This document shows, in pieces, positions 16-48,107 of a stretch of DNA of 64,000 nucleotides. Source of the stretch: Bryum argenteum (Eukaryota > Streptophyta > Bryopsida > Bryales > Bryaceae); the NCBI GenBank assembly GCA_037043015.1, contig CM073325.1, forward strand, positions 1,490,501-1,554,500, written 5' to 3'. Below the pieces are notes generated by a model. That model saw nothing but the letters and a program-made list of their open reading frames with translations. It was not told the DNA's origin and did not search any database. The position numbers and the translations under genes are program-made. How positions within the stretch are numbered: the first letter of the stretch is position 1; each line of letters starts with the position of its first letter.

Positions 16-2142
16 ATGACAACCCCCTTCGTGGCGAAGAGTACCCACGTTTCTTTCCTCTCCCAAATTTCGCCACTCGTGGCAAAGACTTCGACGGTCT
101 CGCTCCGGGGTGGTCGAGTGTCAATGAGCTTGCAAATGGAGCAAGCTGCACCAGCAGTGAAGCTGAACCCTCCGACAGTGGTGGAAGTTCGGGTATCCCC
201 CGAGTCACTGGAGGGATTCGAAGCGGAGTACGAGCGCGTGGCGGCCTCCTGGCCTGCGGATTTGGCCACCACGACCGACGACTTGAAGCTGGAGGATTAC
301 ATCAGCTCGGCTCACACGCTCGTGCGGCGATGGCTGCCTGCGGATCTCCTTGCTCGCCTTGAGCGCTTCATTCATGACCCTAATCAGCCTCCCGCGCTTG
401 TTATTCGTGGCTTGCCGATTGATCGCGACTTGCCCCCCACGCAGGCGAATCTGCATGTATGCCCCTACTCCCCAAATCTTTTCGACGCATTTTCATTGTG
501 ATTGGATTCTTTCGAATGTAACTTACTCGATTTTTGCGATGCAGGAGGCCAAGATGGGGAGGTACATGAGCGAGACATGGCTGGTGGGAATCGCCCGTGT
601 GGTAGGTCAAGTGTTCACGTACGAATCGTTGCGAGGGAAATTGACGGGTCCGACTTCGCTTGTTCGTCAAATCTACACCACTGCTGAGAAAGTGAACCAA
701 GTAAGTCTGACAACTCTTTCGATGTATTAAAATCGAGCTCTTTTCTGAAACTTTGGCTCAGGGTGAGGCCAGTGAGTGTTAGTATTTCATGAACAAATTA
801 AAGGATCATTCAACCATGAGGAGAATGGAACCTGCTCAAAATCCGAGCTGCGCCAAGAACCGTTCAGAAAGCTCATCTGTTTGGAAGGATTCTATTCTTC
901 AAGTCCATCTCAAAAATCTTAATCAAATCTAACAAACATCTATGGTATCACCTTCCATAACTAAGTAGAGAAAAGTCCAAGAATCACAATTCTTCTCCAG
1001 ATTCCACATTCTCTTCCACACTCCACAAGAAAGTTGCCATGTTGAATGTTGCTTTGTTTCTGAGTAGGTAACCTTACTGCAAGAAGGGTCAATGTATTTG
1101 GGTGGTATATTCAGCTACAGAATACATTGACAGATGCCCATACAAAATCTATCTGTTCAGAACATTAGGTTGCCATAACGTCTCTCCTCGAATAACATCG
1201 ACTCTTTCGAAATACTAGAATCAGTTTAGGTCATCTTGCTCTCTTACCACAGCAAAGCGTTTACGGGAGAGAATCGAATGTCTGGTAAACGCAAGATCAG
1301 AGTGCTCCGTAATCGCAAGACTGGGAAGTTGCGAATCTTAGGTTAGTTACACTATATCGCGTATGTGCATCACGAATCTGATTGTGAAAGACCCGGTTAT
1401 CCCCAAAGCCTAAAGAATGCGACGTCATTTGGAATCGTGACTTCTCCAATCTTAGCATCGTTTAGGTCATCTCCGTGTCCATTTATGAGCTTGGGCTCTT
1501 CAATCAGACACAGCTCGACTGCAGCGATACTTACATTCAGGTGTATGATTTGAGCAGATAAGTGCAGAAGGCAGCAAGGAGCTACTGGATTTCCATCTCG
1601 ATTTCTTCCAAGTAAAACCTCAGTGCTTCCCCAACGTGATAGCATTCATGGGAATCCGCGGAGCAGAGAATCAACAAGGCAAAACACTCTTGTGCGACAA
1701 TCGTCTCCTCTACAATGCCCTTTCCCCATCCGACATCGAGATACTACGAAGAGAGAGGATCACGTGGAAGAGTCCGTTCTTCCAATTCTCCCGGCACGTG
1801 ATCGAGGGCTCGGAGGAGCACCCACAGATGAATCTGTTCGAGGAGAATCTGCCAGGCATGAAGGGGTTCGATGATATTGTCCAAGCTAGTCCGGAGGCTA
1901 AAGCGGCGTACAAGCGGGTGAAGGAGATTGCGGCCACCATCGTGGACGGCGCATGGCTCGACTCCGGGGACGTTTTATTGCTGAATCAACGGAAGGCTTG
2001 CCATGGCCGGGGATCGTACGAAGCCAAGTATGATGGCACGGATCGATGGTTGCAGCGAACTTATACTAACAGTGGTGGCTTTTGGGAAGCGGGGCTCTCG
2101 CAGTGGCCGCGCCGGACTATCCCGAATGTGGCCGACGAGTGA
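16..2142 (+). CDS. TauD/TfdA (clavaminate synthase-like) Fe(II)/2-oxoglutarate dioxygenase
   Basis: The proposed exons are 16-456, 545-700 and 1558-2142. All junctions are phase 0 with GT-AG ends, giving 393 residues, or 353 if translation starts at the ATG at 136. The Ser/Thr-rich, Arg-poor first 40 residues look like an organellar targeting peptide, which favours the start at 16. Exon 1 carries the family-like motif RGLPIDRDLPP. Exon 3 opens with GSKELLDFHLD, which supplies the HxD iron ligands (His212, Asp214). CHGRGSYEAKYDGTDRWLQR supplies the distal His348 and the Arg that binds 2-oxoglutarate. The fold is that of asparagine oxygenase and clavaminate synthase relatives, which hydroxylate amino acids or related small molecules; the substrate cannot be told from sequence. 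The 857-bp second intron was placed by matching the spacing of the family across the junction. The gene may begin further left, because the ATG lies only 15 bases from the window edge. Confidence 0.8.
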
Positions 2143-6511: not shown

Positions 6512-7373
6512 CTAGTTACATGAAGAAGAGGACGAAGAGATAAGACTTAAAGATTTGTCTTCACAACTATAAAAAGAGTCCTCGTCTGTTGTCTCCACAA
6601 CGCCCCTTGTCTCTACAACGCCCCTTGTCTCTACAACTTCCAAATCACATGGCTGACGCTTTCTTCTCACTGTCTTAGAGCTTCCTTCTTTGAGGTAGAC
6701 TTCGAACTCGGTGTCCTTGATGAGAGAGAAGAGCAATGTATCTCCTGCCATGAGGCCATAAAAAGTGGCAAAACCTCTCCAGCCATCAAGGCCGCCACAA
6801 AACTTCACACTATTGCTCTTGCCATTAATCAAACGGAGTAGCACATTCCATGTTGTTGACTGAGATCGAAGAATTACATGTTCACGTATCTTATTTCCGT
6901 ACTGTTCAACAAACCATGAGGGCAATATCTGGAATAAAAACAAGAAGGGAATGGCTTCATCAATCCTGCAATTTCATTAATGTAAGCAACTCTAACAATG
7001 TATGCGGTTGATATTGTATCTGACATAGTGCTTTCATATCATGCCTTATCAAGCATTTCTAAAAAAGTAAGCAACTCTAACAATGTATGTCAAATGAGCA
7101 ATTTTATCACCAAAAGCAATTGTAACAATGTATGTCGTCATTGTATATAGCAATGTACTTCCATACCATGCAAAGAATTAATAGAACCTTGCAAATAGGT
7201 CATAATAGGCTACACAATAAACAAGGTGGAAGTCACCATACCATTTCAGCTCTCGGGCTTCCCTCGCGTGCTACAGCAGAAGCAGGAAGGGTCTTCTCAA
7301 AAGAAGCACTTGTTTTGAGTTTGTGAAGCACTTCCGTATTGTTCAATGACACTAACTTCTCACGTCTTGCCAT
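6512..7373 (-). CDS. Small B3-domain (REM-like) DNA-binding protein, 5' structure uncertain
   Basis: The main exon (about 6967 down to 6512) encodes the core of a plant B3 DNA-binding domain. It has ILPSWFVEQYGNKI, HVILRSQSTTWNVLL, a Gly-Trp segment (DGWRGFATFYGLMAGDTLLF) and a C-terminal strand (EFEVYLKEG). After the domain come a basic RRKRQ patch, an 18-nt tandem repeat encoding VVETRG twice with a partial third copy, and an acidic Ser-rich tail. A likely first exon lies at 7373-7242, starting MARREKLVSL and ending at a GT donor. Its phase does not join directly to the main exon, so a short middle exon is missing from my model or the main acceptor differs. B3 proteins of the REM class bind DNA in the nucleus. 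The beginning of the domain (the first beta strand) is the weak part. Confidence 0.6.
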
Positions 7374-13552: not shown

Positions 13553-13945
13553 CAAACCATCTAGACTATCCAAACCATTTAGATCATCCGGACCATTTAG
13601 AGTTTAGACCATTTAGACCATCCGGACCATTTAAACCATCCAAAGTTCCAAACCATCCAAACCATCTAGACCATCTACACCATCTAGACTAGCCTGACCA
13701 TCTACACCATCTACACCATCCAAACCATCTAGACCATCCAGACCATCTAGACCATTTACACCATCTAGACCATTTACACCATTTAGACCATCCAAACCAT
13801 CCAAACCATACAAACCGTCCAAACCATCCAAGCCATCCAAACCATCCAAACCATCCAAGCCACACAAGCCATTCAAACCATCCAAGCCACACAAGCCATC
13901 CAAACCATTCAAGCCATCCAAACCATTCAAGCCATCCAAACCATA
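13553..13945. repeat. 9-bp minisatellite (CCATCYARA)n
   Basis: About 40 units of CCATCCAAA, CCATCTAGA and close variants run for 390 bp. Because the period is a multiple of three, the minus strand stays open and reads as DGL/NGL/DGV repeats over 102 residues. There is no start context, flanking domain or splice evidence, so I treat it as non-coding. Just beyond it (about 14016-14034) is GACGGAGGGAGTACTC, the terminal signature of a Stowaway-like element whose other end is not present nearby. Confidence 0.9.
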
Positions 13946-14542
13946 TGCAACTATATCAATGAGTAATCTAGACCATCAGAAAAATCAACCATTTTCAACG
14001 AATCATGGTGTTTTTCTAAGACGGAGGGAGTACTCTATTAGGTGCTCGTATCGAGGCTCTTCAATCTCTACCTCAACTTGAATATACATACTTCTTTGAT
14101 GCAAGACAATGCTCACTATGAGATCAGATTACATCCTCCTCAACATCATGCAAATAATTGACTTATTCAGGTAACTTACAAATATACATATATACTTCCA
14201 CTATATACAAGGCGATATATCTCTTCACAGAGAGCGTTGATACCCACAGATTGGATGATTTGGATCTGATCCACATAAACATGGTTTTCACCCACACATA
14301 TAGTGAGAGTTATGATAATACATGGGTCTAATGAGTGAGATTATAGTGGTTAAAGTACTCATACACCAATGCCTACTCATATTATAAATTACTTAGGTGT
14401 CATAATTTGTCCTTTCCCATTCACATATTGTCAACTTGTATGAATGCCACGAGTACGAGATAGGAAATAAATCATTCACCTAGTTACTCACAGTTTACCA
14501 AAGCCACCGCCAAGAATATGTTCACACTGTCAACTCTAGTAA

Positions 14543-16579: not shown

Positions 16580-17275
16580 TTATTGGCAGCCGTCCCTCGT
16601 GCAGGCGCCTGTGGGCGCAGCGGCAGCGGCGGCCTGCTGGCTCTCAGCAGCGGCATCAAAAGCCTTGAGAAAAGCTTCAGGAGGCTGAGCACCGGAGATT
16701 TGGTACCGCCCATCAATAACAAAATGGGGCACACCGGAAACGCCGCGATGAAACTGGCGCTCGGAGGTGAGGACTTCCTTCAACCCAGCCTGCGGATCCT
16801 CAAGATAAGCCCGGGCGCCGTCCACGCCCACCTTGTCTGCGGCCGCCACCAGCACCTCTCGGTCACCAATATACTTCTCCTGCGTGAAAAAATTCAAAAA
16901 AAGCTCCTCCACGAGCGCGTTCTGCTTCGCCAAGCTCTGCCGCCCCGCCAATTCAATCAGCCGGTGACTATCCAACGTGCTCCCCGTCTTGCCACCCATC
17001 GAGTACTTGTATCCCAACTGCGCGAACGCGCCCCCCACCCGGTCCAAGATCATCTGCATCCGCCCCGCGCCGAATTTCGCCTTGTAATGCTCCAATTTGT
17101 TAACCCCCTCTTTCGGCGCGTCCGGGTTTAAAAAGAATGGGTGCCATCGAACCTCCACGGAGTACTTGTCTTTGCTTGCTGCGATTGCTTGCTCCAAGTG
17201 CTTCTTCCCGATGAAGCACCAGGGGCAGATCGTGTCCGAGGTCACGTCCACTTGTATCACCTTCTTCGTCGCCAT
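16580..17275 (-). CDS. DsbA/FrnE-family thioredoxin-fold oxidoreductase
   Basis: This is an intronless frame of 231 residues from the ATG at 17275; the frame is open further upstream but without an ATG. The N-terminal strand VIQVDVTSDTICPWC carries the redox CPWC (residues 17-20) at the start of the thioredoxin fold. The helical insertion (about 50-150) is typical of the 2-hydroxychromene isomerase/FrnE branch of DsbA. GVPHFVIDGRY (181-191) supplies the cis-Pro loop (Pro183) opposite the active site. The C-terminal 25 residues are Ala-rich with two extra Cys. No signal peptide is visible, so a cytosolic location is likely. Flowering plants have homologues of this FrnE-like type. The gene is much more GC-rich than its flanks and has no intron, in contrast to most neighbours. 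That would fit an old bacterial or retrocopied origin, but the homologues in other plants argue against a recent transfer. Confidence 0.88.
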   Translation of the reverse strand: MATKKVIQVDVTSDTICPWCFIGKKHLEQAIAASKDKYSVEVRWHPFFLNPDAPKEGVNKLEHYKAKFGAGRMQMILDRVGGAFAQLGYKYSMGGKTGSTLDSHRLIELAGRQSLAKQNALVEELFLNFFTQEKYIGDREVLVAAADKVGVDGARAYLEDPQAGLKEVLTSERQFHRGVSGVPHFVIDGRYQISGAQPPEAFLKAFDAAAESQQAAAAAAPTGACTRDGCQ

Positions 17276-18463
17276 TGCTGCTATGAACCTGCGCCCCAAC
17301 CCGGCTATTGTGATGAAATGGAAATAAGGTTTTCAGATGGGAAGGATTTGATGCCTGCGAATTGTGTTTAACGAGGCCACTGCGAGCTGCGTAATGGAAT
17401 TTATAGGGGTAATTGACGGCGGGTGGGTGTCCGAAAGCGTGCTCGAAAGTCGCAATGTAACAGGGGAGAGCTTCGCCTGAACCATCCTGCCTTCCGATGA
17501 CTGCGCCGCAAGGATGACTTAATTCATCTCATCAGTACAATATTCATCCAATGGTAATCCATGCTAATGGTAACCGATTTCAAAGTCTTGGTTCCAGACG
17601 TAACTTATACTAAGGTGACCAATAATGGCGCAATTTTCGACAGGGAGATCTACTGAGATGTTACTAGTGCAAGCAATTCTCGTGCATGGGAAAAATTAGT
17701 AGAGAGCTAGAGTATGCGGTATCATTATTTCTGAACTCTTCTACAATGAGTTAAAAATATGTTGAAGCTGTTAATATAGGCGTTCCCAAATAGTACCCTA
17801 AACCCTATTTTGGACTGTAGGCTTCATGAACCTCCTGCATTACAAAAATGTATCGAGTCTAAAAGGCCTGCTTCTTGTATTACCGGTAATCTACACCTTC
17901 AAAACATGCACTCAATAGAGACAGAATGCTTTACAGAAAAGTAAGAATAGCCATTTTGAAATCATAAGAAGCTAGTGTGTAAGGTGTCCACTGTAGGAGT
18001 GGCTTTGTTCGATCAATTGATTTCTATGTGAGCAGAATCGAGCCCTGCCGTGGTGCCAAGTCCACATCCCAGATCCTCGAAGAGAGTAACCTCGCTTGCA
18101 CCCTCAATTTACAAAGACGAGTTTCCATTTTCTCGTACCTTCCGTCGCGGAGCTGTCGGTGCGCCCCATTACTTCAATTCGGCGTTCCAATTCTTGTGGC
18201 TTGCAATATCCTTTCGATTTAGCTGCTCCGACCGAGATCATCGCGCTGGGCTTCGCTCACTTTTTATTTTCATAAATCTCGCTGGTACTGTCATTAGACC
18301 AACTAGGGTTTCCTCTTCCATCCTGAAATCAGGTGATCACAAAAGTTAGAAGTCCGGTACAGGTGAAGAATCTCAAATTCCAGAATGCGGGAATCAATCA
18401 GGGTGTGAGTGTTTGGGCGAGCGGTAAAGACTAGAGTGCCGCGTTCGGTGTTCGTTGGAAGCG
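17276..18463. promoter_or_regulatory. Divergent intergenic region between the DsbA-like gene and MED18, with a duplicated leader
   Basis: The two genes are transcribed away from this 1.2-kb region. The MED18-side part (about 18003-18262) is homologous to about 21186-21440 upstream of the next gene. Shared blocks include GTGGTGCCAAGT, CAGATC, ACCTCGCT(T/A)GCACCCTCAA, GAGTTTCC, TTCTCG-ACCTTCC and GGTGCG(C/T)CCCA-TACTTC. Blocks are collinear with small gaps. The segment probably contains the core promoter and 5' UTR. Confidence 0.6.
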
Positions 18464-20226
18464 ATGGAGTGCGTGGTTCAAGGCATCTTGGAAGCTAAGG
18501 TCGGTTAATTATTCAACCCTTACTTCATTTCGTACAGGATTTCGACGTCAACCGCATTTTTGCTCCATGGCCACCTGCGGTCGATATAGTAGATTTAACC
18601 GGTAGTCACACTCTGTTTTCTCAAAAGTAGTAGCACGTTGGCGATTATGTAGACGCAATGCGGAACCGTGACATTGAAGCTATATCCAGCCGCTTGAAAT
18701 GTTTCTGTAGAATACTTACGTTTACTTGTGCCCCAGTATTGTGGCGTGTTTCTTAGTAGAATTCAAAGGAATTACTAGCCACTTGTCTGTCGAACTCTTG
18801 TACGGAGGCCAGTATCAGCAGATTTTCCCATAGTGGAGTTGTTTCTGCAGTAATTTAAATTGCAGTCGTTAGTACTTTGGGAGTTTTACATTTTCTATTT
18901 TTCAGCAGTGGTAGTGTCTCTTGTCTTATTTCTGCTTCTGAGCTAGTTCTTGCCTTGTATCGATCACTTCTAATGTTCGTCATTCCTCTCTCTACCAGCA
19001 CGTGGATGCGCTCGAAGTTTTGTTGCAGGGGCTCTCTGGTGGGCTCCGAGAAACAATTAAAGTACACGAGATGTGTTTGAAGACCGGGCCCAGTTTAGGT
19101 ACCGCACAAGGAACTTCTCTGCAGCTGAATTGAGAGGGGATACTGGAATGCAAGGTCTATTTACTGATACTTTCTTCTGCAGGTGCGGTGGCTTCGGAAG
19201 TCCATCTATGCTGCTCGCTAGCCCAGCCGGAACCTGTCTGGTATGTTAGTCAGTCCTGTGATAACATCATTCAATTTTGGTTAAATATCGAGGAACCGTT
19301 GTTAGCAATTCTTATCATATGCAGGAGTGCAGTAGTCGAATCATCTGAATACGGACCACGACATCCTCTAACCGCGAGATCTTCTGTATCTGATATCATC
19401 AGTCAGAATCTTTGTTTACTGGTGAAGGGTTTAGGGTTTAGATCTGGACCTAAAAAGACTACGACTCTTTCTTTGTTAGAATAGCTTCTGATGTATTGTC
19501 GCATGTGACCCAAGGCAGGTCAGTGCGTCATGTAGGTGGTGCAATGCGAGGAGCTGGAGCAGAGCAGCTTCCTGCTGTGGTGCGTCCCGTTCTAGAAGCT
19601 GAGATCAGTAACAATGCACTTCGCTTCATGTATGCACTTGGCTACAAGCTGGACTACGAAATGCTTCGAACAGGCTTTTCGTTTCAGCTGCACAGAACAG
19701 TGCCCATCGCTGTTACCATCACCATAGCTGTGACGGCTTTGCACAGATTGCCTAAGACTCATGCAGTCGATGACGTACAGCCAATCACACCGGGCTTGCA
19801 AATGGTCCATCTCTCAGCTCCTGCCTCTCCTGACAACTACACCGATGTTGTGAATGCCATTTCCGCTTTGGCTGAACACTTGGCTCCGTAAGCTCTTCCC
19901 CATTCCTCGTAGAGTATATATTCATGCTAATATTTCAGAAAGAACTAGTTATTTGGGCGTTAACTCCGGTCTGTGGAAAGTTGGGGGAAGTCTCTGAAAT
20001 TGTAGTGCAAGCCTTTCTTCGGTGCTACATTTGTGAATCTGCAGTACTAGTGAAGGTCAAGAGTTGCTTTAATTTATTGATGTCCGGGTGATCCACTGAT
20101 TCACTGTTTGTGGTATACAGCCTTGTGCATCTTTCGAAGCCTGGTGTACCTGCCGGTATTGTCCCAACTGCTTCCACTGCTGCAGCTGCCCTTATCTCAA
20201 GAGGTGGCATTACTAAAGTACTGTGA
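18464..20226 (+). CDS. MED18: Mediator complex subunit 18 (head module)
   Basis: Five exons join in frame: 18464-18499, 18999-19098, 19183-19240, 19519-19887 and 20121-20226. They give 222 residues, close to the roughly 219 of Arabidopsis MED18. The N-terminus MECVVQGILEAK and the blocks HVDALEVLLQGLSG, VHEMCLKTGPSLG, SVRHVGGAMRGAGAEQLPAV, NALRFMYALGYKLDYEMLRT, TPGLQMVHLSAPASPDNY and LVHLSKPGV-GIVPTA follow the plant MED18 pattern throughout. MED18 sits in the Mediator head and forms part of the movable jaw with MED20. It links transcription factors to RNA polymerase II in the nucleus and in plants also affects flowering, defence and termination. There is a slight expansion after HRTVPIAVTITIAVTAL relative to Arabidopsis. 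The leader is shared with the downstream gene. Confidence 0.95.
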
Positions 20227-23485: not shown

Positions 23486-26400
23486 CTAAGGGACGGTGTT
23501 GCCGTTGTGCGTAATCATCGGGGTGTCACCACTATGTTGAGGGCTCGCTCTGTATCTGGAATTTGGCGTGGCAGCTCCGTTCGCTTTTGTGTTCTTTATG
23601 TGGGGAAGCGGTGATGGGCCTACCCAGGACAGAATCACTGGCAGCAGCACGAATCCGTTCACGAAGCCTAGCACGCCCATTATGGTGAACATGGCGAAGT
23701 AGTAGAGCCGGAACGCATGGTACCTAGAAGGAGAAACAGCGAAAACTCAACGGCTTAGAAACTGTTTCGTTGTAAGATAGAATGTGAAGGTTTTGGGTGG
23801 AGCTGATAAGTACGAAGAGCCGACTTACTTCACAAAAATTAGAGGGATCGTGGCTGCGATTTGAGTGCCGAAGCCATGCAGAAGAGGCTCCAGCGTCCAC
23901 TCCAGTGCTTTACCAACTCGGTAGTTTCGTGTGCCATCAACCACAAGAAACGATCTGGCCAAGTAAGTCAACTCCGCCGACATTCCAATCTGAAACAACA
24001 TGCAACTCACTTGTTAACATGAAACATCTGTAACCTCCGAACTTTCAATCATTCGTGAAAACAAGTCGGCATGCGTCAATGTAAAATACTCCTTAAACTG
24101 TGCTTAAGAGACTTACGACGATGCCAAGGTTGACAAGCGACAGAGCTGCAAAAATCCAAGCAATCTCACGTTAGTGAAATCCGAAAGCAATCTAGTTCTA
24201 AATAAAAGAGGCTGAGTTCTGAAACAGCTAGACTACCTCTGAGTTTTAGAGAACTTACAGTTCAATTTAGCGCCGATGATGTACATGAAGCCATAAACTT
24301 CGAGATCGATCATAAGCAACACGAGGACGATGATCAAGGACATGGTGATGCTGAATTGGAAGATCAGCACAGCAACGAACACACCAACTGTTTCGCCAAG
24401 AACAAAAACAACGTTCAGTCGCAGCTCAAAACTTGGAAGATTCCGATGATCACTCAAGCGCGCTTAAATTGCTTACCTAGGGCCAAGCCCACGACAGTGT
24501 AAAGATCGCGGTAGCTGTGAAGATACTGCTCGAAGAAGAGGTACGGAAACCCATACATGTACGCCACTTCTTCACCGAACTTCTCGTTCAGATTATCGAC
24601 AACAGCTCTAGTCTCTTTCATCATCGCAAGGTTGTCGGATGTAGAAGCACCCAAATGAATAGCGAACAACTGCAACAACACAAGCATTAATTAGTGCCGA
24701 GCATTCTCATATGCACGCACTTCATGAAAAAGAAGGCTCTTTTTTACTATGACCATGAACATTTTGGACCCGTCACTTCAGACAAAATGACTACATCCAT
24801 ATTAGTAAAGAAAACCTTGTTTCTCTTGCTTTGTAAAGAACGGGTTTTCTGCTCGTACCGCAGACTTCGTCGATGTGATTCGGAAATTGGGGTTTGGCTT
24901 ATATCCAGGAGCATGAGCGTCTTGGAGACAGCTGAGATGCTCCCCAGTAACGCTATCCTCGCAGTAGAGATCTGGGAGCGAAACAATGCCTGAAATGCCG
25001 AAGCACCTCGTGAGAAAACCACCGACAGTGATAGCAATTACAATGATTGAAGCAAAAAGTACCAAGCGGCCCTGCAGTCCATTGCTTGGTGTAATCGTAG
25101 AAGGTCGTGTTGTCCGTTAAGAATGGGTACGAGTGATTGAATGCGATCCTGCTCCACAAGTAGAAGTTTCCAAGCGGTGCTAACTCCGTAATCTGCACAA
25201 GAAAACACGAATCGAGTTAGAACCACAATCAAACAGATCTCAGTATACAAAGTTTTCGGTTGCGAGATTACCCCTGGTTGCGACGGAGCCCATGATGTGT
25301 TGTCGAGCGCGTTGTAAATCTCAAGCATATTCTTCTCACTTTTCACGTAATCGATGTCTTTCGTCACAATCCACTGCAATCAACACCAAAGTCAACAACC
25401 GACACCTTCACCGACACAAAAATCTCGATGTTCACAAGGATTCAGGTACTCACAACGTCGTAGCTCTTGAATCTGTCCTCCGTGACTTTCGCGAATGTGT
25501 TCTGGTAAGAGCCTGTAGAATCGAAACACGCTTCTTATCGATCTCTGATCATGTATGCTACAGGGGAGAAGGCAAATCATGAGTACAGTTACGGAGCTTA
25601 CCGGTTAGAGTAACATCGGAGAGCTTCAATCCGTGCTCCACTTTCTCGAAACCCAAGTAAGTCATTGACACTAGCAACCCGGCGAACACAATGACCTGTT
25701 CCAACACGATGATGAGCTTGAATGCGATCCCCACGTAACTGAAGGTGAAGATTTGATTGCGATGCTCGACTTACCACAACAATTTTGAAGAGGTTACTCT
25801 CGAACAGGGGCGCGTAATACTTGGCCACCCAACGCGAGATGAAGGAGCTTCCCGAACTATCCTGGAATGACGGGTCCGACACATCGAAGGTGTCTGCGCC
25901 AAGAGCCGCCTCCTTCGTGTAGTGAGCTGGGGTAAAAGTAGCATCATGCGCCTTACTCTTTTTGCGAATACCGCAAAACAGCCACAGATTTGGGTCGTTG
26001 TAACGAGCCTGAACAATCAATTGCACTCCCAGGCTTAAACTCCTGCCAGAATTTAATAGGACATGTGCAAGAGTCAAGAGGAATCGGACATGTGCAGTAC
26101 CTTCACTCGGCGGGCATCAAGGGACATGATCGGCATGAAGATGAGAAGCATGCCAAGCGTGTGAAGTGTAGCAGTCAAGCCCATTTGCCAGCAAAACCAT
26201 TGCGCGACCGGCATCGGATTCTGAATCACGACCACGCTCACGATCAAATCAAGAGCGGAATCAAGCTACTTAAGAATCTCATCGAGGTATACTGAAGCTA
26301 GCTTACCAAGGAGGAGATGAAGAAAGCTGCGAGGACCGAGAATGTGGTAAGCACAACCGATGGACCAGCAAGAGCCAATGCGAGCCGCATCTCTCGTTCT

Positions 26401-29190
26401 GGTACCAAGTCACCGGGCGTGTTGAGTGCTTGTAGCCTTGGATCCTCCAAGAAATTTCGCAAGATGTTCACGAGAACGAAGACATCGTCGATACCTGCAC
26501 ACACAACCCATCAACACTCCCGTCTAATCCAATTCATCACCGACATAAATTTAATCACCTTCACTCACCTAAACCGATTGCAAGAAACGGCACCACCGAG
26601 CCTGCTAACGGTGAGAACGGAATGCCACAAAGCGCCGTGAGCCCGAAACCAGCCAACACCGCCAAAGACACCACCGCCATCCCCTGGCAGAGACAAAAGT
26701 CCACGCACCTTAAAAATCATCTCAAAATTTCTCATCTTAACCGGACTGAGTGAGGGTACCGGAGCTTACCACGAGTGCCAAGCTGGTGTGAGAGTGCACG
26801 GGGTTTCGAACATTGAGAAAAGCGAAGAATCCATACACGGAAACGAGCGCGACGCTGAGGATGAGTTGCCAGAGGGGGGCGGAGCTTGCGTCGGCGATGA
26901 TGTCCCGGGTAGATCTCTGGAATACAAATGAATCCATCAGACCATGAATGGTTCGAGAGTCAAGACATGAAGTGGATTGTAGACGTTGCTTACCCATGCG
27001 TTAAACTCCAATTGGAGATCTTCAAACTGTTCGCCATCACCGAACGACGTGTTCGCGGCATGCTTTCTCTTCGGATCTAGATCTTTAATCATCAGATTCT
27101 CCCAGTCTTTCACTAGATCCTCCCTCTTCTTCGAGCCGATCGTGGATTCCAGTCTGGTGTCAAGATACTCGGCGAACATGGGGTGGTCTTGGTGATAGTT
27201 GTTCGACGCCCACCGCACTCCGCCAATCTGCTCCCACCACATTCCAAAAGTCGAATGAGCATCGAGTGCCTCAATCAATATTGACTAGAAGCAAAATACT
27301 CAATGAGAGAGGAAGCCGCGAACCTTGGTGATGTTCCTGCCCGACGGATCAAACTCTAAGCTTCCGAGCGAAGTCAAAACGGGAAGATGCGCTCCGAACC
27401 ACGTCAAGCAGCATGGCATCTTCTTTAGGATACAATCTACAACCTGCTTCCATACTCACGATCAGGTTGAAGCTCCGACACATCAATCGCCAAACGTAAC
27501 TATGCCACATTATGTCACTTCTGGTCCAAAACTGATCTGAAGGGCCCTTTTTGGACGAAGTAACTACATCTCGGAAAACAGGAATATTTGTTGATAACGC
27601 CCTGAACTTCCATAAAAACTTCAGTAAATTCACCTGAGGCACACCAATATCAGCGCTCCGATGGCGACCATTTTCAATAGCGGTGTTGAAGTGGTTCAAT
27701 ATCTGCATTACTATCCACCATCAGCAACCATATACTCACCGGCGAATGAGTAGGGTGTAAATCCAAGCGTTATCAAATGGAATCAGATTCAAGCTTCAAA
27801 GTCGTCGTCTTACCGCTTCGTTCGAATCGAGCGTAGCGTATGATTTGCGATACCGATAGCCCCAAGTGAAAGCGAACTTCATGACTGTGAGGACCTCGTT
27901 AACAATCTGGGGAGCCACAGGTCACGAACGATTATTAAAGGGGTTCAAATTATTACCGATGTTTTACGACGAGTAGCTAGCGGGGGTGAAGATTTACCGG
28001 ATCAACGTCGTCGAGGGGTCGTCCGGCTGCTTTGAACTGAGCCGTGATGTTGGTTCGCAGCAGGTTCCCGCATTTCACAGGCGCAGTGGTCATTTGGTAC
28101 AATCCAAGAATGACATCGATGACCGTGACGTTTTTGTTACCCTGAACATCCGGTAACGGAGTCTCCAGAAGTTTCATCTCAGCAGGGTAATCGAAGTCCC
28201 CGCCTTCTTTGAAGCAATCCAGGGGCGACAATTTCGTGCATGGGAACTCCGTAATGCCCCAGCCTTCGGGAAGCGCCTTTGACGCGGGTACCATCCCTTG
28301 GTACGCCCAGAACACCGAGCACGTCGACATGAACTGCAGTCCCCATGCGCCCCAGTTGTTGTCCTTGATCGGATTCTTCCCTGGCTTCAATGTTTGGGGC
28401 ACTACTGGCCTCTCGCAGAAGTCCACCTGCACGCCAATCATCCTTCTATCAGTCCCACTTCATACAATCAATCGATGCGTGCTCAGGTTTCAGAGAAGTG
28501 TTTACGTTGCTGAGCGTCTTGGGTGCTCCTGGGCCGACGGTAGTTGCCATGGTGAGGTTGTCATACAGCGGCGCAACGGCGCTTTTCAAGGCGTCCATTG
28601 ATCGTTTCAAGTCGATTTGCTCGTCCGGAGAAGCTCGAGAGGTGATCGTCACCGCTTCCTTGCGTGGGATGCCGCCATACCTATAGAATCACTGACGTTA
28701 GAAATTCGAAAACAACGTTCACAACGTACGAGGTTGTGCTCACAAACCTTTGGTTGAAATACAATCGCTCCTCCACCACACGTGAATTGTGCTCTACCCA
28801 GAGCTTCTCCAAGTCTGTCTCCGTAGTGCGTTTCACGAACCCGACTGTCACGCCGCCCAAAAGCAAGATTCCAATGCTGCAAGAAAAAAACCAGAGCTCA
28901 CGTCGTCACTCACCCAGATGCAGAGGTCTACCATAAAAATAAAAATAAACTTCACATTCACGAGCCTTACATGAAGGGTATCCATGGTTTGCGCGCCACG
29001 AACGAGCCATAGCCTGAGAAAATCTCGTTCATCGACACATGGTATCGATAAAGCATGTGCCGATAGGCATCGGCAAGCTGCTCACAGACACAAACAAGCA
29101 CACGTTACCACCATCTCACTTTTAAAAATCACAAACTACAGCTTTCTTCACGCTGCAAACTACAGCAAACGCCATGAAACTTACCCCCAT
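23486..29190 (-). CDS. Patched-like RND-superfamily membrane protein with a sterol-sensing-domain region
   Basis: Twenty-four exons join in frame with GT-AG introns: 29190-29185, 29080-28971, 28876-28748, 28680-28506, 28426-27998, 27906-27814, 27702-27634, 27422-27324, 27284-26994, 26916-26770, 26683-26569, 26494-26307, 26220-26101, 26008-25775, 25716-25602, 25512-25454, 25373-25272, 25192-25063, 24989-24859, 24669-24477, 24387-24259, 24145-24117, 23989-23829, 23723-23486. The product is about 1,163 residues. TM1 is near residues 37-53, followed by a Cys-containing ectodomain. Residues about 480-657 form the SSD-like TM2-TM6 bundle with GIDDVF (555-560). TM7 begins near 736, a second ectodomain follows, and YGFPYLFFEQYLH (about 953-965) precedes TM8-12. 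TM10 has an acidic IDLEVYGF, and the protein ends with NGFVLLPVILSWVGP. The EQYLH and LLPVILSW-GP motifs resemble Patched more than NPC1, and the Cys-rich NPC1 N-terminal domain is absent. The probable role is proton- or ion-driven export of a sterol-like lipid (inference). The least certain junctions are at 27422 and 25716. Confidence 0.85.
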
Positions 29191-29925
29191 GATTACCGAA
29201 CTCTAGCTCGTTCACCTCCGAAGTGATTCAATCACGTTCTCACTGCCCCCACATTTTCTCACCTGCCACATTGCAGCACTAACTCAACCACTGAAACCTC
29301 TACAAAAACTTCCGCCCTGCTGATTTGTGAAAAACGCAAGCTACACTCGAGGTCTGGGAGTACAAAGCAAAAAGAGCGAGGGGTAGGGATAAAAGGGTGA
29401 GGTACATGCTACATACGGAATAAAACACAACAATGCTTGCACCAGTGATGAAACAGTACTAGTCAGCAGGGAACCAGCTGATCGTCCAAGTTTTGGGGTC
29501 CGTAGAAATAGTACAAGCTAGTGCTCAATTGAGTATGTGGGAGCGTGAGACCTCGGCAAGCGCAGGTTGTAAGGTACAGTCCCCCGGGGCTTGCTCGATG
29601 GTGGAGGTGGTGAGCAAGCGTGTAGTCGATGGATGGATGATCGAGATAAGGCCAAGATCGAAGAATTAGTGTAGTCAAGTGCATGGAGTTGAAATGATAG
29701 AGTACAGTGGGTGAGGGAGGGAGGCGGAGGGGAGAGCGAGGGGGCAAAGGAGGCAGTGGAGTGGCGCGAGGGGAGACGACTTAATGAGCATGTCAGCGGA
29801 GTTGAATGCGCGACGCTCTGGGCGTCACTCGGTACAGTTGGGAGAGCCAGGGCGACTTCATGACTAACTGATCCCGGCCTCCCTCCCACTCGCGCTGCTG
29901 CTTTGTGTTAGCAGTCTACCTTAAC
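29191..29925. promoter_or_regulatory. Upstream region of the Patched-like gene
   Basis: On the minus strand this reads C/T-rich (about 29540-29760, with CTCCCTC and CCTCC clusters), as is common in plant 5' UTRs and core promoters. The first coding exon encodes only Met-Gly, so a regulatory first intron (29184-29081) follows immediately. The overlapping minus frames in this stretch (29463-29889) are low-complexity Ser/Pro/His/Leu and are not supported as genes. Confidence 0.45.
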
Positions 29926-30255: not shown

Positions 30256-31930
30256 GTTGTTGCCGCCGACATCCTCGGCCTAGGAATTCTTTGGGAACGC
30301 CCTTTCATTCAATTGGTGGACATCCTCGGCCTAAGGATTCTCTTGGAGCGCCTCTTCAAGCAATTGTCGCCGCCAACATCCTCAGCCTAGGGATTCTCTT
30401 GGAGGGCCTCTCCACGCAAACTGTCGACACGGACATCCTCGGCCTTGGCTACGAATTCTCTTAGAGCGCCTGTTCACGCAATTGTTGTCGTGGACATCCT
30501 CAGCCTAAGAATTCTCGAGCACCTCTCCATGCCAACTGTGGCCGACATCCTCGGCCTATAATCTCTCCTGGAGCGCCTCTTCACGCCTAGTGTCGCCGTG
30601 CACATCCTTGGCCTAAGAATTCTCTTGGAGCGCCATTTCACGTAACTGTCACTGCCGACATCGTTGTCAGCCTAAGAATTCTCTTTGAGCGCCATTTCAC
30701 ACAATTGTCCTTACGGACATCCTCGGGCTAAGAATACTCTTGGAGCACCTCTTCAAGCAATTGTCGCCGCCAACATCCTCAGCCTAGGGATTCTCTTGGA
30801 GGGCCTCTCCACGCAAACTGTCGACACGGACATCCTCGGCCTTGGCTACGAATTCTCTTAGAGCGCCTGTTCACGCAATTGTTGTCGTGGACATCCTCAG
30901 CCTAAGAATTCTCGAGCACCTCTCCATGCCAACTGTGGCCGACATCCTCGGCCTATAATCTCTCCTGGAGCGCCTCTTCACGCCTAGTGTCGCCGTGCAC
31001 ATCCTTGGCCTAAGAATTCTCTTGGAGCGCCATTTCACGTAACTGTCACTGCCGACATCGTTGTCAGCCTAAGAATTCTCTTTGAGCGCCATTTCACACA
31101 ATTGTCCTTACGGACATCCTCGGGCTAAGAATACTCTTGGAGCACCTCTTCAAGCAATTGTCGCCGCCAACATCCTCAGCCTAGGGATTCTCTTGGAGGG
31201 CCTCTCCACGCAAACTGTCGACACGGACATCCTCGGCCTTGGCTACGAATTCTCTTAGAGCGCTGTCACGCAATTGTTGTCGTGGACATCCTCGACCTAA
31301 GAATTCTCGAGCACCTCTCCACGCCAACTGTGGCCGACATCCTCGGCCTATAATCTCTCCTGGAGCGCCTCTTCACGCCTAGTGTCGCCGTGCACATCCT
31401 TGGCCTAAGAATTCTCTTGGAGCGCCATTTCACGTAACTGTCACTGCCGACATCGTTGTCAGCCTAAGAATTCTCTTTGAGCGCCATTTCACACAATTGT
31501 CCTTACGGACATCCTCGGGCTAAGAATACTCTTGGAGCACCTCTTCACGCCTATTGTCGCCGTCGACATCCTTAGCCTAAGAATTCTCTTCGAGTGCCTC
31601 TTCATGCCAAGTGTCGACATTCTCGACCTATGAGTTCTCTTGGAGCGTCTTTTCAGTTTTCACGCAACTGTAACCGCCGACATCCGCCTCTTCACACAAT
31701 TGTCGCCACGGACATCCTCGGCGTGAGAATACTCTTGGAGCGCCTCTCTACGCCAACTGACGTCGCCGTCAAGCCTAAGAATTCTCTTAAAGCGCCTCTT
31801 CACTCAACTATCACTGCACACATCTTCGGCCTAAGAATTCTCCTAGAGCGCCTCTCTACACTAGGTTGCCACGACACCTAGTCTAAGAATTCTTTTGGAG
31901 CCGCCTCTCCACACTAGGTGTTAAGTGTCA
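30256..31930. repeat. Higher-order satellite: ~57-bp monomers in a 397-bp repeat
   Basis: The basic unit is GACATCCTCGGCCTAAGAAT, TCTCTTGGAGCGCCTCTTCA and CGCAATTGTCGCC, about 57 bp, present in about 29 copies. Seven distinguishable monomers form a 397-bp higher-order unit. The word CAATTGTCGCCGCCAACATC recurs at 30361, 30758 and 31155. The first two full higher-order units are almost identical; the third differs at a few sites (for example a short deletion near 31262). The flanking monomers from about 31530 to 31930 are more diverged, the usual picture of local homogenisation. GAATTC occurs in most monomers. Confidence 0.93.
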
Positions 31931-32797
31931 ACCGCTTACGAGTGGGAACAAATTCTCGGTGTCAGAGCATTCTTAGTCCAAGAATTACCAAGTACGCAAA
32001 ATAAAAGAAAGAAAAGAAAATAAAAGAAAATAAAAGAAAATAAAAGAAAATAAAAGAAAATAAATAAAATAAAATATAAAATAAAACCATGTTCATAACA
32101 AAATCACCACTTAAGTTCTAAACAGCTTCAAGTCAAAGAGTGTACCAATTTTTCAAAGGCACCCTCCAAAAGTTTCAAAAACTATATTGACAATGCCCAA
32201 AAAAAAACTTGAGAGTCAAACTTTGGATGTTACGATCTCTCAAATGTTAAACATCCAACGGTCAATTTTTAAAACAACAACTAAAAATAGTCCTAGGTAC
32301 AAATAGTTGCTATTTCAAAAAAAGAACCAAAATCATTTCACAGAAGGATCTTCACAGGTCAACAACTATGAATTTTATCAAGTTTTCCAGTATAGAAACA
32401 TCATCACAAACCAAATACCAATAAACTGTTCAAATTGAAATCTCCCAACACAAAAGTTGTTGAAGATCATCTCTAGATCATAAACATGCTATAAAATTCA
32501 TGATTATGATTATGATTTGCACAATTCACGCACATTGGTAGAACATGCCCCTTGTTTGAAAACCCATAACAATTAACTACTTAACCTAAAATGCATGTCA
32601 TTAATTTATACTTCACTGAATGGGCTCCCACTTCTAATTACACTAAGTAAACTCGATTTCCTCAAAAACAGAGTTTGGTCAGTTGGTTACTGCTCTTCAA
32701 TGTTGTTTTTTTCAGCATTCATCATGATCATAGGTCAATGGCATATTTTAGAGTATGTTCTATTGGGAAAGCATGAATTTAAGTCCTTGAAACTTAA
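31931..32797. repeat. Purine microsatellite and a degraded minus-oriented copy of the ~1-kb family
   Basis: At 31996-32085 there is an AAAAGAAAAT-type simple repeat. At about 32520-32730 the sequence resembles the plus strand of 34930-35170. Shared words include ACATGCC, AAATGCATG-CAT-AATT-ATACTTCA, GGGCTCC/GAGTCTCC and GCTCTTCAA. This looks like a fourth, truncated copy in the same orientation as copy B. No gene is seen. Confidence 0.55.
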
Positions 32798-42673: not shown

Positions 42674-45600
42674 CTAATCATCCTCTTCCATTGTCCTACC
42701 GGTACTACCTTTATAGGCCTCATGTACCATACGATCCACTGCCGCCAGCGACACTGCGGGATCAATAGAATCTTGAAGACTGATAGACGCAGACTCCTCG
42801 TACCTGTAACTGCCCGACTCACCGTGGCGAGTGTACCTTATGCCATCGGTGTTATAGTAGAAGCCGTCTCTAAATGTCATCATTGGTGCGAAGGCCTCGT
42901 TGAAAGCTATGGTGTCCGCTGATTCCGTAGATTGTGGAATGGATGGCACCATTGGTCTCGTTTGAATTGGAGTATCTAGAACCACCTTTGGTATCTCTGA
43001 TCATTCCTCAAAACTATTAGGTTCCACAGACGAATGAAGTCCGTTGTCACATGAGTTATGATCAGGCGAGGGTACATCTGTGTCATACTCACGCGGCTGT
43101 CGTACATTTGCCAATGTGTATGGTGCTGGAATAGAAGTATCCGCTTCATCTCCAAGCTCGTCCTCGTCACTACCGCCTTCCTCTGAACCTAAGTTCATCG
43201 GATCTTTGCCCTTGGAAATGCCAACGCTAGTGCTCCTTGTTGCACCTGTCATCTCAGGGATCTGAAATTGTCCTTGGAAGTTGACAAACAACTTTGTATA
43301 CAAGAAGTTTAGCCTTTCTAGGCTATCGTCAATGACAATGATCTCCGATCCATGGAAACCTCCATGAAGGATTGTCGGAATGGCCGTTGTAATGTTATAC
43401 GCAGCCAAACTCCAACCAATTGGCAAATACGCATCCACGAGTCTAGAGAGCTCGGATGGCGATCGCTCGAGTCTATCACCCTCCGACGGTTGATGTGTCT
43501 CACTCCATTGATCGTGAAATACAAGTGGTAGTGGACGGTCCCCAGAAACATAATTCTGGTTGGAGGAAGTATCAACAGGGTGTTGCATATAAACAACAAC
43601 ACCTCCAAATGGTTCCACCGCTTGCTGTAACTGACCACCCTATGTAAAGTTGAGGGCATACTGATCAACCGAGTTTGCGCCAAATGCCCAACATCCATGT
43701 CGTTGAGTGCCACCCTCGGGAAGTTTGAGCTTCGCGAACAACTCGGCATTAGCAAACACGGCTGGTGGTAACAGTAGAATACTGTTCGATCGTTCAACGC
43801 CTGTCATCCACGCTGACAATTGTGCAATAACTTTGGTGAACTGCTCTTCTTCCCAAGGACCGTCTCCATGCCTTCCCCCACCACGTCGACAATCAACAAC
43901 CGACAAGTACGATTGTGTCAACTGCTGGACATCATGATGAAATAATCTTTCCCAAGCTCGAACTATAAGATGATCTGGTGTACTGGTCTGAGTTGGCCTT
44001 CGAACTTGTAACACCCACTTCCATGTGACGGTAGTGGCACCACCCTCATCTACTGATGCTTCCACTTCTCCATGTGTTCTTGTTGCAATGTCTTGATAGT
44101 GAACCTTGATGGAGGTGGGAATAAGTTCACTTATGTCTGCCAACTTGGGCACCTTCTCTCGTGTAGGTTTAGCCCATGCGGCTTTTGTGTATTTGGCCAA
44201 GACCTTGCCAAATGCATCAATTTGCTCCTTGCCCCCCGGAAAATACTTCCGTACAGATATGTGGAAGAACTCTTCCATGGAATTAGGTGAGCACTCTTTG
44301 TTGAACACCATTAACCAACGAGTGATATTAGCGACCGCTTCTTGTCTCATGATCCGGTCAACTGCACCTGCAATAGCACGGGGATCCCTAGACGCATCCT
44401 TGATGGCGTGAAAGTAATATGATTGTCGAGGTCAAGCGGTCGTCCTCCCCACCTTAGCTTAGTCAGAAGACTTGACTAGCCGTAGATATAAGCGGTCGTG
44501 GAACCACATTCAGTGCCTCAACCAATGCATGGTCATTCGCTTCCGATGCTCCCGTACATCCACAAGAGGATCTATGTTGTTCTTGTCTCAAACGCCTTCC
44601 ACTTCTTCTCCTCTTCCTCGCTATAAAAGAGATGGCCATCTTCGTAGTCCTTGCACACTTGAAGGATAGCTTCGAACACCGACGCCGGGATTCCACGCAT
44701 GAATGGTCAAGTCATGATCCGCTTTGCCAACCTCTTGATTGTTATACCTTTGTTGCCCTCAACAAGGTTCTTCAGATTCGCATTAGCCGACACACCAAAG
44801 CTTTAGCCTGCGTTCATCGTCCCAGCACGAACCAAGCTATCGCGCTTCCCATACAACTCCCAAATCTCGCGTAGCTTTCTCAAGTCCTCATCCATGGTGG
44901 AATATTTTGTCCTATTCCATTCCTTCTTGTTGACCCGCGCGGACTTCGCTAGGTACAATGCAGGATCATCGTATACGACAAATGTTGCCTCCCGCATTTC
45001 AAAGATGTTAATAAACTCGCGATGAGAGTTTGTGTTGGGCAACCTCTTCCTTCGCAAAATTGCAGGCTGCAACTATGTGTTGTCTATCCACTGGCTCCCG
45101 AATGATCCTCTCCTGAAGCCAACACAACTGAGAATGTGTTGTACCGTGAATAGACGCTAATCCGTGCGTATCAAATATGCGTTGGAACTCTCGTTGTGCT
45201 CATTCGAGGGGGAATGCCACCTCTTCTCGCCGAACCACACCATCGTCAGTAGTGACATCCACAATGTACTTGATCGGACGAAGAACCAACTTGCTCACAC
45301 AAGTCTTGTTCTCTGGATGTCTCATAAAGTCATAAACCTCTCTAACTCTCTTTGCAGAGAGTACCCGATGGTTTGTCAAAAGACTCTCCACTTGGATAAT
45401 CTTGTCGATCTTCACCTCAAATACAATGTCCCCCCATAGTGATCCTTTCGCAATTTCTGCTTCAGTAGGTATCGGTGCTAGGAACTTACTTGACGTTGAG
45501 GCCTCCAACGCCATCCTCGGTTCCGACTCTGAATCCTCTTCGTCATGGTCCGATACTTCCTGAAACTCGTCCTCCACTGCTAATACATTCAGTGAAGAAC

Positions 45601-46482
45601 TCGGTACATAAGCAGATGCTCCATGCTGAGCTGGAAACCTCATGGTTGTAGACCCACTGCCCCTACCACGTGCCCTCGATCCTCGTCCAGCTGACCTCGC
45701 ACCACTTGTAGCCACATTCGACGATTGTCCACCTGAACCAGATGCTATGTCGCCTCTATCACGTCGTGGCCGCTTTGGGGGACGTCCTCTTCCAGATAGA
45801 GGAACACTTCCTACAGGCGGTTCAGTAGTCGCGATACGCTGGACGGGCACAGATTGTGCAATCTGCTGAAGTGGTTGGTAATCCAACTCACCTCCAATAA
45901 CATAACTACGGTGAATTGGATCCTTCTCTTCTGGTTCAGCTGGTTGACCTTGTGATGTTGCATGTGTCGGATCCGCCTCTAGTAATGCTCGTACTTAATA
46001 TGGGCATCCATAAGAACCATTGCTCGTGCCACATCCTCCTGTGATAACCCTAGACAATGTGACATATGCTCTTGCCTCGCTGTACGTACTGCAGGAGCGA
46101 TATTCAGCCAAAATTTCTGCAAGGTATTGAGAAATTTCACGGACCCAAAACTTGCAAGCAAGCATTCTGGAATGGATGCAAGAAGAAGCTGTCTCGACAG
46201 AGAAGTCTTCTGCATTGCTTCATCAGCATCTGGGACACACATCACATATATCATGTCAGACGATGGGCGGGTAGTAATTGCTTGAATCCCGCCAAAACGC
46301 TTGCCTAACGCTGACGTACAGTCCCTCATTTTAAAAGGTTGGTGCGTCATCCACAAATAAGGCTTTGAGGGGTCCTCTTCTACAATCCACCATCCGTGCT
46401 TCTCCCATGTCTTGTCGATTTTGCAGTTGGTTCCGACGTTGCGAGGCATGGCAACTTGATAATCATTGGAACACAATATCAT
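42674..46482 (-). pseudogene. Decayed protein-coding locus of unknown family (possibly element-borne)
   Basis: Long minus-strand open stretches follow one another with coding-like composition: 46482-45979, 45886-45200, 45072-44803, 44350-43640, 43618-43001 and 42985-42674. Codon use is richer in GC than the flanks. The first encodes a compact basic/aromatic segment (MPRNVGTNCKIDKTWEKHGW). The second has an AT-hook-like GRGRPPKRPRRDRG followed by an RG-rich stretch, an acidic run and EVKIDKIIQVESLL. The fourth has an SMEEFFHISVRKYFPGG block and TVTWKWVLQVRRP. The last two are acidic and Ser/Asp-rich. No reverse transcriptase, integrase, capsid, transposase DDE motif or known plant domain was recognised. 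Several interruptions separate the stretches. Some may be introns, but the overall impression is of a gene that has lost function. Confidence 0.5.
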
Positions 46483-48107
46483 AATGGTTAATATGGTGTA
46501 ATTTAGAGTCTATTTGACAATTGTTTTGATTTCTATTCAATAAAATATTGATAACTTACACCAAAATTCACCATCCGACCACATGGTTCATGTGAATATA
46601 GACTAACATAGGTCATTTTGTTTGTTTTGATTCTAATATGACTCCATGTGGAAGATGTTTTATGGTTGACGACTCTTTAGCCCCGAAAAGCCTAGGCCAT
46701 TATTCTTCAAGAAACACTTCAAATCTGTCACTATCAAGAAGTGGCTTCAAAATCTAGTTTTAGAGTGAAATTTAAGACTTCTAATCCTAGAATCTTAAAA
46801 TAAACATTGATATAAAGCCACCAAATTTTTTAGGCTACTATGCATCGGAAGGATTAAAATATTATAGCATTTGAAATCATAAAAATAATTCATTTGCTTA
46901 ATTGTATTGAGTGGTCTAGCACACTTTAATTTCACTTGGCTTAAAAAAAATTCACTATACAAGGTCTAACTTCTTTAAAATCATGATTGGCATGATCATG
47001 TTGGTTACCTTAAAACCAATTTCTAGACATGGAAAAGGTGTGTAGCATATTCAAAACAAATATGCAAAGGATCGAGATTGAAATTATTTGACAAACTTTT
47101 ATGCCACATTTTATTCTTTTGTGAACTCAACATGCTTTAGAATGAAAATCCAAAATGATTGATAAGAATTTATTTATCACATAAATTTTTCGCTAGAAAA
47201 AAAATTTTAAAAAAATGAAGATCTATAGGTTATATATAGGAAATAGTGTTTTTTTTCTCTCCCTTGACCAAAATGTGTGAACATGTTTGACTGGGGCTAA
47301 ATGCTCTTTTTACAGTGAAGACAATTTTAGAAATTTGGAATCGTAAAAGAATGTAATATTCTTTAGTCTCAAACGACTGTATGTGAAAGATGTTAGTTCT
47401 ACAATATCTACATTAATATTTTTACTATCATGTGTTGCTAAATGTTTTCATTTTTCTTGTTCTTAAGCAAGTAACTATAATGTATGACGGGTATCAATAT
47501 GGGCGGGTATCCCTCGTGGGCGGGTATCAGACGTTTGAAATGGCTTTAATATAGTAAATGGGATGTTTATTGGAGTTCACTTGGTTGATTGTTTCAAGGG
47601 TGTGTCTTGCACACACCCCTTGCAATCTCTCGATACTTTTTTATTATTTCTATTTTTAAAGATTCTTAAATTTTTTTAGGGTTTAGGGTTTTAAGATTGG
47701 GATTTTGGTGGCTTTGGTGGCGGGTGCATGGGCTTTGCAAACAAAGACCACAAAGAGGATGAAGGGAGGAAGACGAAGATTTTAACATATCGAGTACAAA
47801 GTGGATGACTTGAATAGTAGCGTATCTGTCTGAGAGCGAATAAGAACCCAAAATGCACGTCGCAACAAAAATGTAACAACACCAATGATAGCAATGAGGA
47901 ATAGCAACAAGATCGTGAAAGTAGCAAGCATCGATTCGGTAGCAACAAAGAGGCGGCGATCCGGTACAACAAAGAGCAACGATTCGGTACTAGAGCAAGC
48001 AATGATTCGATTGATGCAATGACGGCGGCAAGGAGAATCGGCAAAAAGATTTTTGGTTGCAACAAGTCACGAAACTCTCCTAGTGCTCTCTGATCGTCCT
48101 AGCGGCC
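46483..48107. other. Intergenic, AT-rich, with a telobox-like motif
   Basis: TTTAGGGTTTAGGGTTTT at about 47676-47693 equals just over two plant telomere units; such teloboxes occur both as promoter elements and as interstitial relics. From about 47690 the minus strand stays open in Leu/Ser-rich frames up to the minisatellite, but no domain is visible. No gene is supported. Confidence 0.4.

Follow-up and report, generated by a model that had tools for sequence, protein, structure and literature searches.

Background

Patched is usually treated as the animal Hedgehog receptor, and flowering plants are known for homologues of NPC1. To our knowledge, neither Hedgehog nor Smoothened, nor a pathway of that kind, is known in plants. 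The gene described here encodes a Patched-like RND transporter and lies in a stretch of 64,000 nucleotides from the moss Bryum argenteum (GenBank assembly GCA_037043015.1, contig CM073325.1, positions 1,490,501 to 1,554,500), which is called the window below and to whose first letter all coordinates refer. We consider it probable that its product is an RND lipid transporter with 12 helices, that within the Patched/NPC1/Dispatched superfamily it stands closer to Patched than to NPC1, and that it would move a sterol by cation drive.

In PTCH1, a cation site is made up of the motifs GXXXDD in transmembrane helix 4 (TM4) and GXXX(E/D) in TM10, and the substitution D513Y abolishes function; cholesterol export by PTCH1 has been argued to need ion-gradient coupling, whereas the import direction of NPC1 can be spontaneous (PMC10446486). 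Hausmann and colleagues argued for an origin of Hedgehog signalling in older lipid-transport systems, the Patched-family RND proteins being the oldest parts of that signalling that can be traced (PMC2698682). A literature search, with most subscription papers outside its scope, found no published plant Patched, and automated database annotations may exist.

Gene structure

Built by hand, exon by exon, the gene occupies 29190 to 23486 on the minus strand and reads in a single frame through 1143 residues and a stop, with GT-AG borders at all 23 introns (67-190 bp). The gene is real and intact. The following parts of the model are needed for the argument (aa, amino acids):

23486..29190, minus strand: whole gene of the Patched-like RND transporter, with 24 exons and 1143 aa (GT-AG model; PTCH1 E=7.6e-57; PF12349 and PF02460 above cut-off)
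29185..29190, minus strand: exon 1, start ATG GGG (from the sequence)
28971..29077, minus strand: exon 2, N-terminal cytosolic segment and beginning of TM1 (gene model and hydropathy)
27324..27443, minus strand: exon 8, with the least certain 5' junction of the gene (canonical AG, in frame, weak pyrimidine tract)
25602..25695, minus strand: exon 15 (TM7), 5' junction moved from 25716 to 25695 (PTCH1 TM7 alignment)
23486..23614, minus strand: stop codon and the short tail of about 42 aa at the C-terminus (from the sequence)

The start ATG stands in a good context (A at -3, G at +4) and is preceded, 15 bases upstream, by an in-frame TAG at 29203-29205. The original prediction also had 24 exons, a count that stands, but it gave 1163 residues, 20 more than the rebuilt protein, and two of its junctions, 27422 and 25716, both flagged there as in need of confirmation, have been replaced. 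For exon 8 the most likely start is 27443 (gaagcag/GTT), at a 27634/27443 junction in frame with exon 7; this junction stays uncertain because the pyrimidine tract of its acceptor is poor and no homologue spans this stretch of ectodomain 1. The start of exon 15 most likely lies at 25695 (aacag/GTC), with the junction 25775/25695, rather than at 25716, the former being preferred because the alignment of TM7 with PTCH1 then gains one residue, while 25716 gives eight.

Immediately upstream of the gene, positions 30318-31619 hold a higher-order minisatellite with a 397-base unit in 3.3 copies (97% match), the unit itself being composed of shorter repeats.

Protein architecture and motifs

The predicted protein has the 12-helix RND layout with two large ectodomains, as originally predicted, together with a sterol-sensing domain (SSD). 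Hydropathy called 11 helices (TM1, TM2-6, TM7 and TM9-12), and TM8, which received no separate call, is placed by alignment with PTCH1 and NPC1. Ectodomain 1, of about 420 residues, lies between TM1 and TM2, and ectodomain 2, of about 200 residues, between TM7 and TM9-12. By Pfam gathering scores, the protein belongs to the SSD/RND superfamily: the sterol-sensing domain PF12349 matched at 4e-23 (82.4 bits, cut-off 22.3) and the Patched SSD PF02460 at 8.8e-18 (65.0 bits, cut-off 23). The following elements carry the comparison with PTCH1 and NPC1:

26003..26799, minus strand: sterol-sensing domain, TM2-TM6 region, aa 494-646, over exons 10-14 (PF12349, 82.4 bits)
26484..26489, minus strand: TM4 acidic pair D544-D545 in GXXXDD (G540), aligning with PTCH1 D513/D514
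23972..23974, minus strand: TM10 acid E1017 in GXXXE (G1013) (alignment)
28202..28243, minus strand: ectodomain 1 motif PCTKLSPLDCFKEG, aa 201-214, matching PTCH1 YPCLIITPLDCFWEGA (shuffle test)
24517..24549, minus strand: FPYLFFEQYLH, aa 935-945, Patched-like motif preceding TM8 (PTCH1 alignment)
23615..23659, minus strand: TM12 motif NGFVLLPVILSWVGP, aa 1087-1101 (PTCH1 alignment)

Both motifs of the PTCH1 cation site are present, as G540-D544-D545 and G1013-E1017, in agreement with the acidic pair in TM4 and the acid in TM10 noted earlier, and the threonine near the cation site (T591) is kept. At the acidic pair, NPC1, NPC1L1 and NCR1 read DN, whereas the Patched-like protein, PTCH1 and DISP1 read DD.

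The C-terminal motifs had been said to resemble Patched more than NPC1, and alignment with both bears this out: GFPYLFFEQYL here compares with GYPFLFWEQYI in PTCH1 and VFYVFYEQYL in NPC1, while the TM12 motif NGFVLLPVILSWVGP compares with NGLVLLPVLLSFFGP in PTCH1 and HGLIFLPVLLSYIGP in NPC1. Ectodomain 1 is mostly unalignable beyond one motif shared with PTCH1, where FPCTKLSPLDCFKEGG aligns against YPCLIITPLDCFWEGA; the common pattern, PCxxxxPLDCFxEG, was found neither in NPC1 nor in yeast NCR1. Among 1000 shuffles, 2 reached the local score of ectodomain 1 against PTCH1, compared with 61 against NPC1 and 548 against NCR1. As judged from these alignments, this motif is the strongest single sign of Patched kinship.

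Placement relative to Patched and NPC1

In a search of solved structures, PTCH1 was the top match (7.6e-57), followed by NPC1 (1.4e-43), NPC1L1 and yeast NCR1; Dispatched (DISP1) was not recovered by this phmmer search. A superfamily match by chance is excluded by these values (E = 7.6e-57 for PTCH1; 4e-23 and 8.8e-18 in Pfam). Among the NCBIfam profiles, Patched (TIGR00918) outscored NPC1 (TIGR00917), with 249 against 209 bits over the whole protein and 218 against 160 bits over the membrane-plus-C-terminal part.

For the phylogeny, the Patched-like protein was set beside PTCH1, human NPC1, NPC1L1, yeast NCR1 and DISP1, the NPC1 clade thus being represented by animal and fungal members and not by plant NPC1. 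For PTCH1, the human protein supplied the first half and chain 7k65, as deposited, the other. All tree sequences were taken from or confirmed against Protein Data Bank alignments and were aligned in N-terminal, SSD, TM7 and C-terminal blocks; after searches with NPC1, PTCH1, NCR1 and DISP1 baits, the letters of the deposited chains were used. A preliminary five-taxon tree lacking NCR1 was undecided. The best tree pairs the Patched-like protein with PTCH1 (ultrafast bootstrap, UFBoot, 82; Shimodaira-Hasegawa-like approximate likelihood ratio test, SH-aLRT, 87), with a root that is soft because the outgroup is very distant.

A position inside NPC1, which had been set beforehand as the outcome that would overturn the Patched-like reading, was rejected for the NPC1/NPC1L1/NCR1 clade in both placements (approximately unbiased test, AU, p = 0.00025). 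The sequence comparison thus shows the gene product to lie outside the animal and fungal NPC1 clade. This result bears directly on the idea that the gene is a divergent plant NPC1 whose N-terminal sterol domain was lost. Such an origin would fit the general knowledge that flowering plants have NPC1 homologues, and over the TM1 region the NPC1 model scores better. An oomycete Patched-like protein, also without the domain, clustered with NPC1 homologues in one analysis (PMC8530017). To the extent that animal and fungal members stand for the whole NPC1 clade, however, this idea is refuted by the AU test; moreover, the match to human NPC1 reaches 385 bits for yeast NCR1 and only 152 bits for the Patched-like protein, and TM4 carries DD, not DN.

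The search for the missing domain points the same way. NPC1_N was not found by Pfam in the 1143-residue model, as had been claimed for the gene from the start, nor in the ten minus-strand open reading frames (ORFs) of at least 79 aa upstream, out to 39.0 kb, a scan that short exons could escape, and a stop stands in frame before the ATG. A derivation from plant NPC1 therefore appears very unlikely to us.

Several observations weigh against a close kinship with Patched. The 249 bits lie far under the Patched cut-off of 1120 bits, just as the 209 bits miss the NPC1 cut-off of 1016.5, and a 636-residue part of human NPC1, used as a control, scored 237 bits on the Patched model, similar to 249, along with 1090 on the NPC1 model. 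The protein is therefore clearly not NPC1, yet by score it is no Patched either. Residues 1-460, the part up to TM2, slightly prefer the NPC1 model (45.7 against 28.6 bits, with a match over aa 15-99, the TM1 region), and the conserved sites are balanced: of the columns on which the three NPC1 proteins agree, 15 favour PTCH1 and 19 favour NPC1. The histidine four residues past the TM10 acid, found as EFxxH in PTCH1, NPC1 and NCR1 and as DFxxH in DISP1, is absent (AELTYL), and the PTCH1 site-2 residues H520 and D1128 are replaced by N551 and H1049, so that coupling may differ from that of PTCH1.

A rival reading is a separate third lineage of eukaryotic SSD/RND transporters, either a sister group of NPC1 or one that branches below Patched plus NPC1, which would look Patched-like only through the missing NPC1 N-terminal domain and through retained ancestral residues, the TM4 DD among them. 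The AU test did not reject a position as sister to the entire NPC1 clade (0.19) or basal to Patched plus NPC1 (0.063), and since DD is present in DISP1 too, it may be ancestral. In the conserved-site comparison, PTCH1 sides with the NPC1 clade at 25 columns at which the Patched-like protein stands alone, and its identity with PTCH1 in the membrane parts, 31.8%, is about the same as the 31.0% between PTCH1 and NPC1. On the other side stand the pairing with PTCH1 in the best tree, the higher score of the Patched profile, and the PLDCFxEG motif, which is hard to see as ancestral unless it was lost in both NPC1 and NCR1. A third lineage is thus possible, although we regard it as rather doubtful.

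Patched-like is accordingly kept as the best label for a protein whose sequence weakly favours sisterhood with PTCH1 and does not prove membership in Patched. Of the original call, the part that places the protein nearer to PTCH1 than to NPC1 stands; for a Patched proper the evidence falls short (249 against 1120 bits, and a weakly favoured sisterhood).

Proposed transport and its significance

The protein would most likely extract or export a membrane sterol, or another isoprenoid lipid like it, by drawing it in through the sterol-sensing domain and then passing it along the two ectodomains, with cation flow through D544, D545 and E1017 driving the transport; in plants, the proton would be the most likely cation. 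As for Patched, the substrate pool would be membrane-resident lipid, with no NPC2-type hand-over: since the NPC1 N-terminal domain is missing, no sterol loading from an NPC2-type carrier is expected. We infer substrate, direction, coupling ion and cellular site, together with the sister position to Patched, from these comparisons.

No Hedgehog-binding surface is recognisable in the Patched-like protein. Proteins with a Hog domain have been described by Buerglin in Physcomitrella, where they carry a signal peptide, and in Selaginella (PMC2362128). Given secreted Hog-domain proteins in a moss, a lipid-linked partner for the Patched-like protein is conceivable. A bolder version, in which early land plants retain a true Patched orthologue that acts together with the moss and Selaginella Hog-domain proteins, as an ancient pair of lipid-linked ligand and RND transporter older than animal Hedgehog signalling and lost in flowering plants, strikes us as improbable. 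A plant gene of the Patched type would make the transporter older than its signalling role, and it would offer a Hedgehog-free, phytosterol-bearing system for asking which cargo Patched-type proteins carry and which ion drives them.

Genomic surroundings

The window holds further features outside the transporter gene:

6515-6973, minus strand: DNA-binding domain of the B3 type (Pfam 1.2e-9)
1549-2139, plus strand: fragment of a TauD/TfdA-type dioxygenase (Pfam 6.7e-10)
16583-17332, minus strand: DsbA-type (FrnE-like) thioredoxin-fold protein, single-exon open frame (Pfam 3e-31)
19454-19888, plus strand: weak match to Med18, a Mediator subunit (slightly below the curated cut-off)

B3 domains are a plant-lineage marker that points to streptophytes, and the nearby B3-domain gene supports the plant-type genome that had been proposed. 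It also argues against contaminant DNA of animal, oomycete or algal origin in the plant assembly, since the transporter gene shares one contiguous sequence with genes of plant type. With 32% identity across its membrane parts, the protein is, in addition, distant from animal Patched, and searches for bacterial and viral relatives came back empty: an alignment-based pattern scan of prokaryote genomes, without tblastn confirmation, returned none, nor did two scans of viral contigs, one of them alignment-based and the pattern matching again without tblastn confirmation. Contamination is thus extremely unlikely.

Neither Rfam nor a tRNA scan returned a match in the window. An open frame of Pro-Ser/Lys-Pro repeats (PSKPSKPSKP) at 13698-14081 on the plus strand is probably a coding-like minisatellite, a simple repeat array of AAAAT / AAAATAAAAG occupies 31998-32086, and long adjacent open frames at 43004-46509 on the minus strand, with no Pfam match, possibly represent a degraded mobile element.

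Comparison with known systems

With DISP1, the Patched-like protein has the RND/SSD layout and the TM4 DD in common, and it differs in a mere 17% identity in the aligned part and in the lack of a phmmer match. With NPC1, NPC1L1 and NCR1 (TIGR00917), it shares the superfamily, the SSD, the 12-helix RND core and an alignable C-terminal half; unlike them, it has no N-terminal Cys-rich domain, carries DD for DN, and falls outside their clade by the AU test.

The oomycete protein PsPTL (SCP3), compared by description only, resembles it in coming from a non-animal host and in having the SSD and Patched domains but no NPC1_N. That host, Phytophthora sojae, also has NPC1 proteins, and the PsPTL knockout gave no visible phenotype (PMC8530017).

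From PTCH1, the Patched-like protein departs in its membrane identity of about 32%, its score far under the curated Patched cut-off, its short C-tail, an ectodomain 1 that is unrecognisable outside the shared motif, and the absence of the TM10 EFxxH histidine and of equivalents to the site-2 residues H520 and D1128. Like Patched (PTCH1; TIGR00918), it combines a two-half RND fold of 12 transmembrane helices with an SSD, GXXXDD and GXXXE, does so without an NPC1 N-terminal domain, and carries the PTCH1-like motifs PCxxxxPLDCFxEG, GFPYLFFEQYL and NGFVLLPV.

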